Of a stretch of 45,402 nucleotides of DNA, positions 16,818 through 23,277 are shown piece by piece (within the stretch, counting starts at the first letter, position 1; each line of letters starts with the position of its first letter). Under the pieces are notes generated by a model, which had not been told where the DNA came from, ran no database searches, and was given only the letters and a program-made list of their open reading frames with translations. The DNA is from an uncultured Arenicella sp. (GTDB lineage: Bacteria > Pseudomonadota > Gammaproteobacteria > Arenicellales > Arenicellaceae), in contig CALINO010000079.1 in assembly GCA_938045295.1 (NCBI GenBank), positions 1 through 45,402 on the forward strand, given 5' to 3'. Made by a program: the position numbers and the translations under genes.

Positions 16818-17225
16818 GCGTTATTGCTAGATTAAACTGCTTAAATTTGAATAAAACCCACCATTTCACATTCTTTGACATTTGGAGCAAAAACAAGTTT
16901 TTGCTGGACAACTGAGCGTTAAATGTTGTTTATTTCTGCCTGTTACAAAAAATGTCAGTCATATTGTCATTTTACTTGCGTATAAAAAACCTAATATGAC
17001 GTGAATCGTCAGAGCTAAACCCCTTGTTTGCCAGTAAGGGGCAGGTGCTGACAAATATTAAATTTTTGCGTGATTCATTCCCTCGCTGTAAATTTATCTC
17101 ATCAAGTTAATTAGCGCTTTCGTTAGTCCGACTCAGACAAATTAACGAAGCAGCAAAGAAATAAGCAATAGAACAAGAGCTCTGCGTGTCATTAGCTCTG
17201 CACATTGAACGATAAGGTATATAAA
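16818..17225. other. Hairpin-rich upstream region of the first small paralog
   Basis: No protein gene is seen. The region holds a run of inverted repeats: AGCAAAAAC/GTTTTTGCT (16886-16905), GTCATATT/AATATGAC (16958-16965 and 16993-17000), TGACG/CGTCA (16997-17011), CCCCTT/AAGGGG (17020-17025 and 17036-17041) and TTCGTTA/TAACGAA (17119-17125 and 17143-17149). A direct repeat AGCTCTGC occurs at 17178-17185 and 17194-17201. Such density suggests a long structured leader or several protein-binding sites before the gene at 17226. Confidence 0.5.
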
Positions 17226-17555
17226 ATGAAATTAACCCGAAATGTTTTAAATTTGATGTTCGAATTAAGCAATATTGAAGGCGAGAGTAACTCGGGCTAC
17301 CTTTGTGGCGAAGGCTCAGTGTTGAGAAATAACCTACTAGAATTGTTCAAGATAACCACCAACCCAGAGTCTCATGGAATCATTATCGACATCATGAGCG
17401 AAGCAGGCTACCCGTGGTTTGGTGATTTAATCGAAATGGGTGATTGTTATATCCGAGACGCTGCAGCATTGTCAGAGTCAAATGAAAGCGGTTTCATGCC
17501 TATGAATGAAGATGATTTTTTAGAGCTTATTCCAGCAAACGGTCATTTTCACTAA
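17226..17555 (+). CDS. Small protein of unknown function, tandem paralog A
   Basis: I do not recognise this 109-residue acidic protein. The ATG at 17226 is chosen over 17205 because similarity to the second copy begins exactly there (MKLTRNVLNLMFELS). It has no signal peptide or membrane segment, so it is probably cytoplasmic. About two thirds of its residues match the protein encoded at 18106-18438, with the strongest blocks at NVLxLMFELSxIEGES, NPESHxIIIDIMSEAGYPWFG and the C-terminal ELIPANGHFH. Two near-terminal histidines (GHFH) and several conserved acidic residues could bind metal, but that is speculation. It is followed by a strong terminator at 17641-17674, so it is transcribed alone. 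Confidence 0.72.
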   Translation: MKLTRNVLNLMFELSNIEGESNSGYLCGEGSVLRNNLLELFKITTNPESHGIIIDIMSEAGYPWFGDLIEMGDCYIRDAAALSESNESGFMPMNEDDFLELIPANGHFH

Positions 17556-17640
17556 ATTAAGATTTTGTTCGGGGTGTTGGGGTCTTTAGGGGTTTGGTTA
17601 CAGTAGTTGTATTTTACAGCCTGATTAACCGGTGTCGTAA

Positions 17641-17674
17641 AAGCCATGTTTGAGTTATCAAACATGGCTTTTTT
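17641..17674 (+). terminator. Intrinsic terminator after paralog A
   Basis: A 13-base arm AAGCCATGTTTGA (17641-17653) pairs perfectly with 17658-17670 around a GTTA loop and ends in a run of six T (17669-17674). Confidence 0.9.
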
Positions 17675-18105
17675 ACTGCCCAGAGAAAATAAGGCGATAT
17701 GTTGTTTATCGTTATGGCGCGCTTATGATTACGATCTGGCCCAGAAGTTACCGGGCTAGCTACCATTCTTGGTTTTGGTTATTCTCACTTTGAGCTTCTT
17801 GACTGTCTTATGAGTAGCGTTATTTTCGCTTCGAAAATAGGTAGGCATAAAAAGACAATACTCATCAATGGCTTAGTACTTTGCGTAGGGCGTTCATTAA
17901 GTTTATTGTGTACTAGATGAGCGTTGCAGAGCTTTCAATATTGGCTGAGCGTTCATGATTTTGTATTGAAAAAATTCGACATAACAATTGTTTGCACTTA
18001 TTTGATGTTCTTATCTAGGATAGCGTTGCGAATTTGAGTATAAATAATAAACAGATTGTAAGTTAGTTGATGAGCGGTAAGTTTAATTGCAGGGGAGGCC
18101 ATAAA
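17675..18105. other. Long intergenic region between the two small paralogs
   Basis: No coding frame with family resemblance or credible start is seen. A perfect hairpin TATTTTCG-CTT-CGAAAATA lies at 17821-17839, and ATGAGTA near 17810 has an inverse copy TACTCAT about 60 bases later. The region must contain the promoter of the second paralog. It shows no evident similarity to the region upstream of the first copy, so the duplication, if recent, did not keep the control region. Confidence 0.45.
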
Positions 18106-18438
18106 GTGAAATTAACCCAAAATGTTCTAGATTTAATGTTTGAGTTAAGCTGTATTGAAGGTGAGAGTCATTCTATGTACCTTTCTGATGAAGGCTCAGG
18201 CTTAAGAGAGAATTTGTTAGAGCTATTTCAGCGAACAAGTAACCCCGAATCTCACGAAATCATTATTGATATTATGAGTGAAGCCGGTTACCCATGGTTT
18301 GGCAGTTTGTTCAAAATGGGCGACAGTTATATCTGTGATACTGAAGTGGCTTCCTTAGTGAGTAGCAATAAACGCTCTCAGTTGATGAGTGACGATGACT
18401 TTATGGAATTAATACCCGCCAATGGGCATTTTCACTAA
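18106..18438 (+). CDS. Small protein of unknown function, tandem paralog B
   Basis: This 110-residue protein is a paralog of the product at 17226-17555. A GTG start at 18106 is chosen because AGGGGAGG lies seven bases upstream and the following codons match the ATG start of paralog A; the frame itself opens at 18067. Conserved features are the N-terminal KLTQNVLDLMFELS, the block NPESHEIIIDIMSEAGYPWFG and the identical C-terminus ELIPANGHFH. Differences are concentrated in the segment just before the C-terminus. There are two cysteines, in different positions from those of copy A. It is transcribed alone, with a long upstream gap and its own terminator. Function unknown. Confidence 0.72.
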   Translation: MKLTQNVLDLMFELSCIEGESHSMYLSDEGSGLRENLLELFQRTSNPESHEIIIDIMSEAGYPWFGSLFKMGDSYICDTEVASLVSSNKRSQLMSDDDFMELIPANGHFH

Positions 18439-18527: not shown

Positions 18528-18563
18528 AAAAAGGCCGTATTAATTTATTAATACGGCCTTTTT
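18528..18563. terminator. Bidirectional intrinsic terminator
   Basis: AAAAAGGCCGTATTAA (18528-18543) pairs perfectly over 16 bases with 18548-18563 around a TTTA loop. It lies between paralog B and the convergent gene at 18592-18963 and suits both. Confidence 0.92.
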
Positions 18564-18591: not shown

Positions 18592-18963
18592 TTAGCTTCC
18601 GGCTATAGATGCGCTGTACTCTTCATTGTTTGAGGTTCGATTCCAAAAACGAGTTCGCTTATAGCGATCATCGGGTTTACCACTGCTCACTTTCTGTGGT
18701 GTGTCAATGACGGTTAACAGCATATTGCCTTGTGACAAATTTTTATTCACTTCTCTAAGCAATAATTTGTAGCAGTGATGCACGTCAGGGTGCTTACTGC
18801 GAGCACAGCTGTTGTGAACATGTTTGAATACGTTCAAAGAACTTAATTGAATGACGACACCGTCATGTTCTTTAACATGTTTGGCAAATTTTGAAAGCAG
18901 CACCAATACCTTTGCAGGCAGTACCGTTGCCTTCACATTATAGAGGTTGTTGACCTTTTTCAT
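18592..18963 (-). CDS. Small basic protein of unknown function
   Basis: I do not recognise this 123-residue protein. It is rich in Lys, Arg and His, has no signal peptide and has no membrane segment. The N-terminal two thirds look like a compact alpha/beta domain (VKATVLPAKVLVLLSKFAKHVKEHDGVVIQLSSLNVFKHVHNSC); the C-terminal 35 residues look disordered and charged. Two cysteines are about 17 residues apart. It converges on paralog B and shares its terminator, and a palindrome at 19003-19022 lies about 40 bases before the ATG. Its location next to the paralog pair may or may not be meaningful. The full-length frame with its own upstream palindrome and terminator supports it being a real gene. 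Confidence 0.65.
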   Translation of the reverse strand: MKKVNNLYNVKATVLPAKVLVLLSKFAKHVKEHDGVVIQLSSLNVFKHVHNSCARSKHPDVHHCYKLLLREVNKNLSQGNMLLTVIDTPQKVSSGKPDDRYKRTRFWNRTSNNEEYSASIAGS

Positions 18964-19270: not shown

Positions 19271-21040
19271 CTATTTTTTCTTTGGTATGTAAAGGTCGGT
19301 AATGGTGCCTTCGTACACTTCAGCCGCCATGGCCACGCTTTCAGAAAGAGTAGGGTGCGGGTGAATCGTCAAGCCTATGTCGGTTGCGTCTGAGCCCATT
19401 TCAATGGCCAGAGCCACTTCGGCAATAAGGTCGCCGGCATTTTGCCCCACAATACCACCGCCCAATACTTTGTGCGTTTTAGGGTCAAACAACAGCTTGG
19501 TTTTGCCTTCGGTTCGGTCATTGCCAATGGCTCGGCCAGATGCGGCCCATGGAAAGACACCGGTTTCGTATTCCACGCCATCAGCTTTAGCTTGCGTTTC
19601 AGTTAAACCAACCCACGCTATTTCAGGGTCTGTGTAGGCAACCGAAGGAATAACACTGGCTTCAAAACCGCTTTTTAGCCCAGCACAAACTTCGGCCGCC
19701 ACTTTTGCTTCGTGTGTGGCTTTGTGCGCCAACATAGGCTGGCCAACCAAGTCACCAATGGCAAAAATATGATCAACGTTGGTTCTCATTTGCTGGTCAA
19801 CGGCAATAAAGCCACGTTCATCCACGTTGACTCCGGCATTGTGGGCGTCAATCAAATCACCATTAGGGCGGCGACCGGTGGCAACCAGTACGTAATCAAA
19901 AACTTGAGACTCTGGGCCTTTGCTGCCGTCTGCGTTGGCAAAATGCACTTTAATACCTTGTTTCTGAGTTTCAATGCTTTCCACTTTGGTGCTGGTCATG
20001 ACTTCTTTAACCAGTGACTTCATGCGCTTTTGCAGTGGTGCAATCAGGTCTTTGTCGGCGCCCGGAATAATTTGCGGCATAAACTCAACTATAGACACGT
20101 CTGTGCCTAATTCGCTGTACACCGTAGCCATTTCCAAACCGATAATGCCGCCACCGACAATCAGCATTGATTTTGGCACTTCTTTCAACTCTAAAGCGCC
20201 GGTTGAATCAATGACTCTAGGGTCGTCGGTTTCAAACATTGGGAACACAGTAACACGTGAGCCGGCCGCAATAATGGCCTTGTCAAAGCTTAAGCTGGTG
20301 GTGTTGCCGGCGTTTTCGATCGACAGTGTGTTGGCTGATGTAAATTTAGCGTAACCAGTCACCACATTGACTTTGCGTGCTTTTGCCATGCCGGCAAGGC
20401 CGCCAGTCAGTTTGCCAATAACCGATTCTTTAAAGTGCCTTAATTTGTCGATGTCTATTTTGGGCTTGCCAAAAGTAATACCGTGCTTTTCCATGGCGCG
20501 CGCTTCAGAGATAACGGCGGCCGAATGCAGCAGTGCTTTTGATGGTATACAGCCTACGTTTAAGCACACACCGCCCAGTGAATCGTATTTCTCAATCAGC
20601 GTTACGCTTAAGCCTAAGTCCGCGGCTCTAAATGCGGCGGTATAACCACCTGGGCCAGACCCAATAACCACAATGTCAGCATGGCTGTCGCTAGAGCTGG
20701 GTGTTTTGGCGGCGGTTGGTGCTGGCTTAGCGGCCGTTTCTTTTTTAGGCTCGGCCTGTTTGGCTTCGGCCGTATCAGTTTGTTTTGCCGATGGTTGGTC
20801 TGAAGCTGACTCAACAACCATAATGACATCGCCTTCATTGACGGTGTCGCCAACGGCAATGTTAATGGCCGTGATTTTACCGGCATCAGAAGAGGGGATA
20901 TCCATCGATGCCTTATCGGTTTCAACCGTCACCAGTGAGTCTTCTTGTGACACGTCATCGCCGATTGAAACAAGTACGTCGATTACCTCGACATCACTCG
21001 CGCCACCCAAATCAGGAACTTTAATTTCTACTTTAGACAT
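19271..21040 (-). CDS. lpdA: Dihydrolipoyl dehydrogenase (E3) with N-terminal lipoyl domain
   Basis: This flavoenzyme reoxidises dihydrolipoyl groups of the pyruvate dehydrogenase complex and passes electrons to NAD+. Residues 1-80 form a lipoyl domain with the attachment Lys43 in the ETDKASMD motif. An Ala/Pro/Lys-rich linker follows, then a full E3: FAD motif VIGSGPGGYTAAFRAADLG, redox disulfide GGVCLNVGCIPSKALL, NAD motif IVGGGIIGLEMATVYSELG, FAD segment IFAIGDLVGQPMLAHKA and C-terminal His-Glu pair HPHPTLSE. The total of 589 residues exceeds the usual 470 because of the lipoyl domain, an arrangement also known from Neisseria and some other proteobacteria. It is the third gene of aceE-aceF-lpdA, 20 bases behind aceF. 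Confidence 0.96.
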   Translation of the reverse strand: MSKVEIKVPDLGGASDVEVIDVLVSIGDDVSQEDSLVTVETDKASMDIPSSDAGKITAINIAVGDTVNEGDVIMVVESASDQPSAKQTDTAEAKQAEPKKETAAKPAPTAAKTPSSSDSHADIVVIGSGPGGYTAAFRAADLGLSVTLIEKYDSLGGVCLNVGCIPSKALLHSAAVISEARAMEKHGITFGKPKIDIDKLRHFKESVIGKLTGGLAGMAKARKVNVVTGYAKFTSANTLSIENAGNTTSLSFDKAIIAAGSRVTVFPMFETDDPRVIDSTGALELKEVPKSMLIVGGGIIGLEMATVYSELGTDVSIVEFMPQIIPGADKDLIAPLQKRMKSLVKEVMTSTKVESIETQKQGIKVHFANADGSKGPESQVFDYVLVATGRRPNGDLIDAHNAGVNVDERGFIAVDQQMRTNVDHIFAIGDLVGQPMLAHKATHEAKVAAEVCAGLKSGFEASVIPSVAYTDPEIAWVGLTETQAKADGVEYETGVFPWAASGRAIGNDRTEGKTKLLFDPKTHKVLGGGIVGQNAGDLIAEVALAIEMGSDATDIGLTIHPHPTLSESVAMAAEVYEGTITDLYIPKKK

Positions 21041-21060
21041 TATTTTTAAACCACTGATTA

Positions 21061-23277
21061 TTAAACGGTTAATCTTCTTACATCTTCAAGAATCATGGCG
21101 ATGTGACGAGTGAAGCGAGCCGCTTCAGCGCCATCAATAACGCGATGATCGTAAGACAGACTGAGTGGCAACATCATGCCTGGTGTGAATTCAGAGCCAT
21201 TCCAAACCGGTTGAATTTTACTTCGAGCAACGCCTAAGATGGCCACTTCAGGAGCATTCACGATTGGTGTGAATGAGGTGCCGCCAATACCGCCAAGACT
21301 TGAGATGGTAAAACAAGCGCCACTCATGTCGTTCATGGTTAATTTTTTGTCGCGTGCTTTTTTCGCTAATTCACCCATTTCAGTCGCAATTTCAGCAACG
21401 GATTTTTTGTCGGCATCGCGAATAACCGGTACTACTAAGCCGTTTGGTGTGTCTACAGCAATACCCACGTGGAAGTATTTTTTCAGTACTAAGTTTTCGC
21501 CACCCGATTCCAGTGAGCTATTGAACTGAGGGTAGGTTTGCAGTGCGTTAACCACGGCTTTGACGATAAAAGCCAATGGCGACAGCTTGATGTTTTTGTT
21601 CTGCGCTTTATATTCCGCATTGAGTTGCTTACGGAATGACTCCAGATCATTGATGTTAGTTTCATCATTGTGCGTAACGTGCGGCACGTTTAACCAAGAG
21701 CGGTGCAAGTTAGTGGCTGTTAAACGTTTGATTTTATTCAAAGGTTGAACTTCGATTTCACCAAACTTGCTGAAGTCTTGCGCTGGTATGGCTGGAATGC
21801 CAGCACCGCTGGATGTGGCTTGCTGAGCGCCGCCACCTTGAGTAATGACGCCTTTCACAAATGACTTAACGTCGTCTTTGGTGATGCGGCTTTTACGGCC
21901 AGAGCCCGATACTTGAGTTAAGTCAACGCCCAATTCACGCGCAAAACGTCGAATTGACGGAGAGGCGTGCGAATTGCCGCCACTGGCTTTAGGTGCGGCG
22001 GATGGCTGCGGTTTAGCGGCTTGAGCTGGAGCAGGGCTTGGCGCTGCTTTTTGTTCTGGCTGAGCGGGGGCGGGTGCTGATGCCGCTTTCGCAGGTGCGG
22101 CGGCTGAAGACTCAAGTGTAACAACAACCGTGCCTTCGCTTACTTCATCATCCACATTTACTTCAATGCTTTTAATCACGCCTGCGTTTGAGCTCGGTAC
22201 TTCCATACTGGCCTTATCACTTTCAAGCGTGACCAGTGCGTCTTCAACGTCCACCGTGTCGCCGACAGAGACTAGTATTTCAACTACTTTGGCCGCGTCG
22301 CCACCAATATCAGGAATGGCAACGTCCACAATTGCGGAAGAGCTAGCGGCTGGTGCTGCTGTGCTTGTTTCAACGTTGGCTTCTGGGCTGGCTTCTGGCG
22401 TGGCCGGTTCGGCGGCCTTAGCGTCATTTCCATTGTCACCACTGATTTCAAGTTCGATTAAAGCGGTTCCTTCGCTGACGTCTTGGTCTACTGAAACTGC
22501 AATGGACTTAATGGTGCCGCTTTGTGGGCTAGGCACATCCATGCTGGCTTTGTCACTTTCGAGGGTGACCAGTGCGTCTTCAGCATTAATTTGATCGCCG
22601 ACGTTGACCAAAATTTCAATTACTTTGGCTGAATCAGCGCCGATGTCTGGAACATTTATAGTTAGTAACGTGTTATCTGACATTGAATTACTCTCAGTAG
22701 TTTCTACATGGTGAGCTTGAGCCTTCACAGGCTCAGGCTGAGGCGCGCTTATTGGCGCTTCAGTTGAATTGGTTGTGTCGTCTAGGCCAGCCATTAAATC
22801 CAAAGACTGTTGTTTATGGACTTTTGCGTTTTGAGACTGAGTCGCTTTCTTAGACACTTTCTTAGTTTTCTTCTTGGCTTTCTTTTTGACTGGAGCCGGG
22901 GGAGGAGGCGCGAGCGTTTCCTCTATTTCAACCGGTTCTAAATCTTGAGCCACTTGCTCAGGCTCAATCGGCTCAATGGCCGCTTCTTCTTGTTCTGCAT
23001 TAACATTAATAGGAGTTGTTGCAGTGCTCTTTTCCACGGTGGTTTCAAGCAAAAGAAGAGGGGTCGATAAGCTGATATTTTCTTGTTCGCTAACAATAAA
23101 TTCAACTATCCGACCCTCTTTGGTCGACGGAAGCTCCAGTTTTGTATTGCCGCTTTGCACAATAAACAGCGTGTCACCAGCGCTTACCGTGTCGCCCTCA
23201 TTTCGCTCAATGGAAATGATCTTGGCTTGTCGGTAGGCACTGGCTTCAGGCGCTGTCAGTTCGACATACTTAATCAT
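21061..23277 (-). CDS. aceF: Pyruvate dehydrogenase complex E2, dihydrolipoamide acetyltransferase
   Basis: This core subunit of the pyruvate dehydrogenase complex transfers acetyl groups from lipoyl arms to CoA. In the 738 residues I see a lipoyl-like domain at about 1-80, an acidic/Pro linker with a Lys-rich run near 132-146, canonical lipoyl domains at about 204-278 (Lys243 in ESDKASMD) and 316-390 (Lys355 in ESDKASME), a peripheral subunit-binding domain (SPSIRRFARELGVDLTQVSGSG), and the catalytic domain with His711 and Asp715 in DHRVIDG. The first domain lacks lysine at the standard position (Asn44) and has Lys46 two residues later. A second possible start at Met199 (ATG 22683-22681, GAGAG upstream) would give a standard two-lipoyl E2. 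Confidence 0.95.
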   Translation of the reverse strand: MIKYVELTAPEASAYRQAKIISIERNEGDTVSAGDTLFIVQSGNTKLELPSTKEGRIVEFIVSEQENISLSTPLLLLETTVEKSTATTPINVNAEQEEAAIEPIEPEQVAQDLEPVEIEETLAPPPPAPVKKKAKKKTKKVSKKATQSQNAKVHKQQSLDLMAGLDDTTNSTEAPISAPQPEPVKAQAHHVETTESNSMSDNTLLTINVPDIGADSAKVIEILVNVGDQINAEDALVTLESDKASMDVPSPQSGTIKSIAVSVDQDVSEGTALIELEISGDNGNDAKAAEPATPEASPEANVETSTAAPAASSSAIVDVAIPDIGGDAAKVVEILVSVGDTVDVEDALVTLESDKASMEVPSSNAGVIKSIEVNVDDEVSEGTVVVTLESSAAAPAKAASAPAPAQPEQKAAPSPAPAQAAKPQPSAAPKASGGNSHASPSIRRFARELGVDLTQVSGSGRKSRITKDDVKSFVKGVITQGGGAQQATSSGAGIPAIPAQDFSKFGEIEVQPLNKIKRLTATNLHRSWLNVPHVTHNDETNINDLESFRKQLNAEYKAQNKNIKLSPLAFIVKAVVNALQTYPQFNSSLESGGENLVLKKYFHVGIAVDTPNGLVVPVIRDADKKSVAEIATEMGELAKKARDKKLTMNDMSGACFTISSLGGIGGTSFTPIVNAPEVAILGVARSKIQPVWNGSEFTPGMMLPLSLSYDHRVIDGAEAARFTRHIAMILEDVRRLTV

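Follow-up and report, generated by a model that had tools for sequence, protein, structure and literature searches.

Tandem small acidic proteins of Arenicella and their convergent basic neighbour: a possible partner pair with a portable C-terminal tail

Introduction

Why would a bacterium keep two tandem copies of a small gene of no recognised family, and do the products act by themselves or with something encoded nearby? The question is raised by a stretch of 45,402 nucleotides from an uncultured Arenicella sp. (contig CALINO010000079.1, analysed at its full length and called here the window), in which a first-pass annotation had picked out two similar single-gene units, here called A copies 1 and 2, and had read them as kept duplicates whose common C-terminus was the part most likely to carry function. 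That reading is largely right; it had overlooked the small gene B convergent with copy 2, a third paralogue of A and the lineage-specific nature of the duplication, and B is the strongest clue to the function of A. From the comparisons below A and B probably work together, and our preferred explanation, to which we give a probability of about 0.4, is that they are a co-inherited partner pair forming an acidic–basic complex in which the tail of A serves as a docking motif.

Results

Both A copies are constrained protein-coding genes

A copy 1 (17226–17555, plus strand) starts with ATG and encodes an acidic protein of 109 amino acids, in which a predicted helical domain (roughly residues 1–70) is followed by a linker and a C-terminal tail; A copy 2 (18106–18438, plus strand), which lies 550 bp further on, starts with GTG and encodes 110 amino acids. 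Lengths, spacing and start codons are all as first annotated. The open frames run on upstream to an in-frame TTG (at 17205 for copy 1 and 18067 for copy 2), and the ATG and GTG starts are preferred because similarity across the genus begins at M/V-K-L-T. The aligned proteins are identical at 78 of 108 residues (72%; 71% by tblastn), where about two thirds had been estimated, with an alignment score of 374 against a maximum of 16 for 1000 shuffles of one protein. Both end in ELIPANGHFH and carry the core NPESHxIIIDIMSEAGYPWFG, which differs only at x, again as originally described. Differences between the genes fall 28/17/52 over the three codon positions, and with pS at 0.83 (saturated), pN at 0.17 and dN at 0.20 synonymous change exceeds non-synonymous change, which is the bias on which the first-pass annotation had made its reading of kept duplicates depend. 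The third-position bias, the saturated pS and the dN of 0.20 together indicate purifying selection on two copies that are protein-coding, constrained and maintained. In the A tree the two are grouped with support of 99/95, and the duplication is therefore lineage specific; the A-family set of this genome consists of these two copies and one distant A3-type paralogue (G000:C8:86919–87206; subfamilies are described below).

The strong terminators noted earlier correspond to a hairpin after each copy. The one 3′ of copy 1 (17637–17676, plus strand; −21.1 kcal/mol, z −5.96) is terminator-like and is absent from the list of the consensus terminator scan, and the one between copy 2 and B (18528–18563) is a perfect terminator-like hairpin of 16 pairs that is listed on both strands, so that it can act for B, the convergent gene, as well. 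As a perfect hairpin of 16–17 bp is present in only four of 12 A–B gaps (from 11 genomes), the idea of an A–B terminator as a defining conserved part of the locus was dropped. A translation-arrest peptide, an idea prompted by PMC12992588, was also set aside: in the window each A copy is followed by a terminator-like hairpin and copy 2 by a convergent gene. Comparison of the 400 bp upstream of copy 1 with the 400 bp upstream of copy 2 reported no matching stretch of at least 14 bp, nor was a conserved upstream element found between them, which fits the view that the copies may be separately controlled. Among the loci, upstream regions match clearly (E up to 0.006) only between L004 and L006–L009.

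The A family is so far confined to Arenicella

A single-sequence search found relatives of A in 15 of 194 genomes, all from the genus of the window. The profile used for the searches of genus, order and class was made from 27 members (alignment A1; the tail-only protein L028 was omitted from this alignment and from alignment A2, and third-subfamily members were omitted from the latter). With it the family was found in 16 of the 18 genomes of the genus (E up to 0.1; at most six matches each, counting proteins that have the tail only), in 16 of 109 genomes of the order (E up to 0.01; none of the 91 outside the genus) and in four of 369 genomes of the class sample (E up to 0.001), all four in-genus, with none among the 365 others. 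No relative was found in viral contigs or in phage and plasmid records, or by a single-sequence scan of genome contigs; a genome-contig scan with an A3 query gave 10 loci. So far the family appears to be restricted to Arenicella, within the genomes searched and the sensitivity of the profile.

Members from the fetched loci fall into at least four subfamilies. Subfamily A1 is the window type (15 sequences from 13 genomes); A2 (seven sequences) has a variable linker and a Y-[FML]-H end in all seven; A3 (17 sequences) carries a W-[LV]-R-[KR]-L or WLQKL motif and is without the window-type tail; and A4 (19 sequences) is basic, with a pI of 9.1–10.7 in 19 of 19 and YRG within the last 15 residues in nine of them. 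Profile comparisons join the four as one family (probabilities of 99.5% for A1–A2, 99.0% for A1–A3, 95.4% for A1–A4 and 98.7% for A3–A4). In the loci examined several subfamilies return at sites of their own, beside fusA-, fkpB-, typA- or lpdA-like genes: the fusA-like gene, for example, has A4 as its neighbour, and the fkpB-like and ispH-like genes have short A3 proteins; all these names are what we take the genes to be from their sequence. The basic A4 paralogues are found in tandem pairs (L101, L102, L104, L107, L110 and L045), mostly beside the fusA-like gene, and their YRG (e.g. RIYRGQVVE) shows that this domain can also end in a short motif of another kind.

Library and structure searches

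That the proteins belong to no recognised family, as first annotated, was borne out by Pfam, NCBIfam, PHROGs, PADLOC and the PDB sequences, none of which gave a significant match. Pfam was searched with the two A copies, ten paralogues, B itself and a further orthologue and paralogue of B, none of which had a match above cut-off (PF11411, at E 0.016 for A copy 2, is below the family cut-off); NCBIfam, searched with the two A copies only, returned no row; PHROGs, searched with seven proteins, gave nothing significant for A or B types; PADLOC, searched with five, gave nothing significant and no row at E ≤ 1 for the A copies or B of the window; and there was nothing significant among PDB sequences for the A and B profiles. 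Two other candidates were judged to be chance matches, namely AbiEi for one third-subfamily protein (PADLOC E 0.0034, Pfam AbiEi_3 E 0.16) and PHROG 2700, which a protein of the second subfamily matched at E 0.0096. Among the matches listed from the open-licence literature there was no description of the A family. The family appears to be new to the libraries searched, and on present sequence evidence its domain is without a known relative that would suggest a function.

The AlphaFold2 model of A (from 11 sequences; mean pLDDT 72) has main helices at residues 5–21, 31–43, 47–59 and 65–81. Block means over residues 1–70 are 80–92, and pLDDT is below 50 at 74–96 and 105–109, so that the linker, the tail and the C-terminal part of the fourth helix are predicted to be disordered or are unreliably modelled. 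Compared with PDB structures, A gave a best Foldseek E of 0.56 (probability 0.21) and a best VIA Z of 5.3, and B a best Foldseek E of 1.7, none of them significant; a missing match does not make either protein a new fold. Chains of CARD or PYD proteins, which are small helical bundles, are frequent near the top of the Foldseek list for A, whose model has four main helices, but an E of 0.56 at best and a VIA Z of no more than 3.8 for CARD are values that any small helical bundle may give, and are no evidence of membership of the death fold. The structure prediction and survey of related genomes that the first-pass annotation had proposed yielded no significant match to a known fold and, in addition, B as a conserved neighbour.

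B is inherited with A beside an lpdA-like gene

B (18592–18963, minus strand) encodes a basic protein of 123 amino acids, modelled with three helices, and is the convergent neighbour of A copy 2 and its proposed partner. Next to it lies a gene for a dihydrolipoamide dehydrogenase (19271–21040, minus strand), which we presume from its sequence to be lpdA and which serves as a syntenic anchor outside the unit, being found with or without A and B. In the locus comparison 19 loci were used, the window among them, and A1 is present in 11 of these. B adjoins A1 and is convergent with it in 12 of the 13 A1 genomes (11 from the locus comparison together with G006), and the 13 B orthologues, from 12 of the 18 genomes of the genus, are all beside A1 and convergent. 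B had no match (E up to 0.1) in the other genomes of the 18, and none in 91 genomes of the order or 365 of the class sample outside the genus.

The sites without A1 and B are informative. In two of them (G004 and G001) the large glycosyltransferase gene that elsewhere flanks A on its far side abuts lpdA with gaps of 218 and 153 bp, its product being 55% and 50% identical, respectively, to the protein of L050; in G014 neither A1 nor B follows lpdA; and in G009 and G016, which are also without A1 and B, an orthologous lpdA was not found, only a distant homologue at 40%. This joint presence and absence at the lpdA sites means that A1 and B behave as one unit that is inserted or lost. This glycosyltransferase gene is on the far side of A in eight of the 11 A1 loci; that of L050 (4123–8301) encodes a protein of 1,392 amino acids whose N-terminus matches methyltransferases weakly and which contains two stretches of glycosyltransferase family 2, and a PhyH-type dioxygenase gene is often beside glycosyltransferases of this type. 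Both the glycosyltransferase and the PhyH-type genes persist where A is absent. An alpha/beta-hydrolase gene lies upstream of A1 and in the same direction in six of the 11 loci (L050:2985–3932, L042:6354–7340, L041:6529–7533, L049:6222–7328, L056:5050–6069 and L052:16111–16695), and is found neither in the window nor at the empty sites. It may be an optional third member of the A1–B unit, and its place beside A together with its absence from the two empty sites means that A is linked to more than B.

Two genomes depart from the usual arrangement. In G012 the gene order is A-B-A-B, compared with A-A-B in the window, where no relic of a lost B was found between the A copies (best E there 1.8 with the Bcore profile); the two A copies of G012 group with support of 99/96 and so arose by a duplication separate from that of the window pair, while in the B tree, which has long branches, the sister status of the two G012 B copies was not resolved. 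The pI of B is 9.5–10.5 in 12 of 13 sequences, the exception being the second B copy of G012, which is acidic (pI 4.7). G011 is the sole A1 genome without B, lpdA following A after 118 bp with no B between, and its A is an outlier with a pI of 9.6 (4.4–5.2 in the other 14 A1 proteins) and the tail LTEREFLSLLPANEFLH.

A and B may be distant relatives

In the models the three helices of B (17–34, 45–55 and 59–78) have the same order as the first three main helices of A, with similar loops; the segment NVFKHVH in helix 2 is specific to B. The first hhalign comparison of A with B was negative (probability 0.3%), and single subfamilies gave 2.1% at most, but of four comparisons with pooled profiles the best reached 39%, the others giving 12–18%. 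In this best comparison all A sequences (58) were aligned with B and its paralogues (28) over 62 columns in register, with a score of 30.5; 100 column shuffles scored no more than 16.4, the reversed profiles 8.8 and 10.0, and 82 reversed and rotated controls no more than 10.0. The pooled profiles with their shuffle controls are suggestive of kinship, and it is likely that A and B descend from a common ancestral domain.

The C-terminal tail is conserved and portable

The tail occupies the last 20 codons of each A copy (17493–17552 in copy 1 and 18376–18435 in copy 2, both on the plus strand), ending in ELIPANGHFH. Among the 15 A1 sequences the last 17 residues have a mean pairwise identity of 0.66, compared with 0.56 in the domain and 0.28 in the linker. 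The common form is [ML][ST][ED]x[ED]F[LM][DE]L[LIM]P[AIV][NS]x[HY][FLM]H, from which tails depart at several positions, and the end pattern P-x-[NS]-x-[HYFR]-[FLMI]-H is common to window-type A, the second subfamily and four small proteins that have no A domain. The proline and the final histidine are invariant in all 23 aligned tails. The first-pass annotation had called this C-terminus invariant and the likeliest carrier of function; its conservation across species stands and is extended to other proteins, but invariance does not, as the first histidine is replaced by Y, R or F in other members and the tail of G011 has ANEFLH. The tail alignment (A7) holds 23 of 26 tails, the omitted ones being L009, which hardly differs from L008, and two divergent tails, L023 and L026, so that the tail profile leans to the canonical form.

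Searched against the 18 genomes of the genus, this profile gave 24 strong matches (E up to 3.1e-8), made up of 15 A1 proteins, five A2 proteins and four without the A domain, all of them at the C-terminus of small proteins, with no large protein among them. Eight further rows were listed at E 0.23 to 0.83, one of them an A2 protein (L026, matched only at E 0.23) and seven judged to be chance; the A2 member L023 was missed. The four tail-only proteins (L043:6375–6650 in G005, L048:6040–6333 in G015, and L113:1908–2201 and L053:6533–6829 from G006 and G012) are acidic (91–98 amino acids, pI 4.3–4.7) and have nothing but their C-terminal tail in common with the A proteins of the window; L043 and L048 are near a typA-like gene. 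A2 and tail-only proteins, whose genes lie elsewhere in the genome, are present in seven of the 12 genomes with B and in none of the six without it, a pattern that is expected if the same receptor is used and that could also come from the relatedness of the genomes.

Discussion

Our preferred explanation starts from what is observed: A and B lie side by side in a conserved convergent order, are present or absent together and differ in the sign of their charge, the tail is conserved on different proteins, and the A copies are under purifying selection. From these observations we infer physical binding, the identity of the receptor and the role of the complex. Both A and B would be small helical proteins that probably go back, as very distant paralogues, to a single ancestral domain, and the acidic A domain, the acidic C-terminal tail or both would dock on basic B to give a hetero-complex, the flexible linker of A presenting the tail. 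Second-subfamily and tail-only proteins would use the same docking site as A, so that B or its complex may be a common receptor for several small clients, with the two A copies of the window as alternative clients of one B. Our guess is that the complex could act as a regulatory adaptor, and the inhibitor or small regulator suggested by the first-pass annotation is a possible role for A. What argues for a partnership with tail docking is that A and B differ in the sign of their charge, are inherited together and are both doubled in G012, and that the tail is altered in G011, where B is missing. It should be noted that convergent genes are not co-transcribed, so A and B may be neighbours through hitch-hiking on a single insertion, that the change of charge and tail in G011 is a single case and has to be counted as a limit on the partner reading, and that the acidic B copy of G012 counts against acidic–basic pairing. 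A wider proposal, which we consider rather unlikely as a whole, is that Arenicella has evolved an interaction system of its own, with acidic A clients bearing a portable tag, a basic and distantly paralogous B receptor, and the same tag on otherwise unrelated small proteins; the window would then show one receptor opposite two duplicated clients, and G012 a doubling of the entire client–receptor pair. If true, a new protein interaction module would have arisen within one bacterial genus. The material itself is a protein family known so far from one genus (at least four A subfamilies together with B and its paralogues), whose members have come to differ in charge and which has a C-terminal motif in common with other small proteins, and the natural experiments that it offers (the B-less genome, the doubled unit and the empty sites) make the partner hypothesis directly testable.

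It is quite possible, if doubtful, that A belongs to an ordinary genus-specific family of small proteins which act separately, e.g. as minor subunits or as RNA- or nucleoid-associated proteins, and that the A–B adjacency is an old insertion beside lpdA. Taxonomically restricted small genes are common, which favours such an account, as do the recurrence of several subfamilies at their own sites in the loci examined and the existence of basic subfamilies (all 19 A4 proteins), but it does not predict the doubling of A and B together in G012 or the altered A of B-less G011. The latter genome and the co-inheritance of B are also left unexplained if the tail is a degron-like signal for a protease adaptor or general machine, with A a short-lived regulator whose amount depends on proteolysis and B a mere linked neighbour. 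This we consider improbable, even though the tail is C-terminal, is modelled as disordered and can be carried by different proteins, and A resembles proteins with ssrA/SspB-type or docking tails in having a disordered linker and a short conserved C-terminus that is found on differing proteins. The tmRNA tag reported for Arenicella is ANDDNYALAA (four of four genomes tested), and its start resembles [AS][AS]ND near the C-terminus of 10 of the 17 A3 proteins (L024, L035, L037 and seven others; AANDD in three), a short resemblance that was spotted post hoc; window-type tails end in NGHFH (PANGHFH in the window), without the LAA of ssrA-type tags.

Two small proteins of opposite charge and patchy presence also call to mind a toxin–antitoxin or immunity-type pair, which is nevertheless very unlikely. 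The one-operon layout of type II systems was not found, A and B being convergent in 12 of 12 genomes with both and separated in the window by the terminator-like hairpin; among the described toxins and antitoxins that they cover, Pfam had no match above cut-off and PADLOC no row at E ≤ 1 for either A copy or B of the window; and the chromosomal site recurs, A being without a match in viral contigs, phages and plasmids. Still less probable is the peptide precursor originally suggested, with the C-terminus as the core of a modified peptide. A is small, its linker is flexible, the proline and final histidine do not vary in the 23 aligned tails, and some cofactor-type precursors have conserved cores; the alpha/beta-hydrolase of six of the 11 loci can be imagined as the processing enzyme. 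In five of the 11 loci, the window included, it was not found next to A, however, genomes without A retain the glycosyltransferase and PhyH-type genes, and in this comparison of linked genes it is B that stands beside A in 12 of 13 genomes. A leader with a separable core was not found either: the N-terminal domain of A is predicted as a confident fold and not a leader, and the tail is conserved on differing N-termini, on proteins that lack that domain and have no common leader.

Further features of the loci

In G017 two tandem B paralogues (L089:1423–1755 and 1932–2276) indicate that B-type genes also duplicate locally. Within 19271–23277 of the window the lpdA-like protein seems to bear an N-terminal lipoyl-type domain, and the putative aceF-like protein opens with an unusual segment, MIKYVELTAPEASAYRQAK, that appears to be kept in many loci of the genus. 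Three A3 matches (G015:C2:153001–153243, G017:C191:2407–2649 and G001:C69:8856–9116) were reported with internal stop codons; complete open reading frames of 80–100 amino acids are present at these places, and the reported stops may fall beyond the true ends of the genes.
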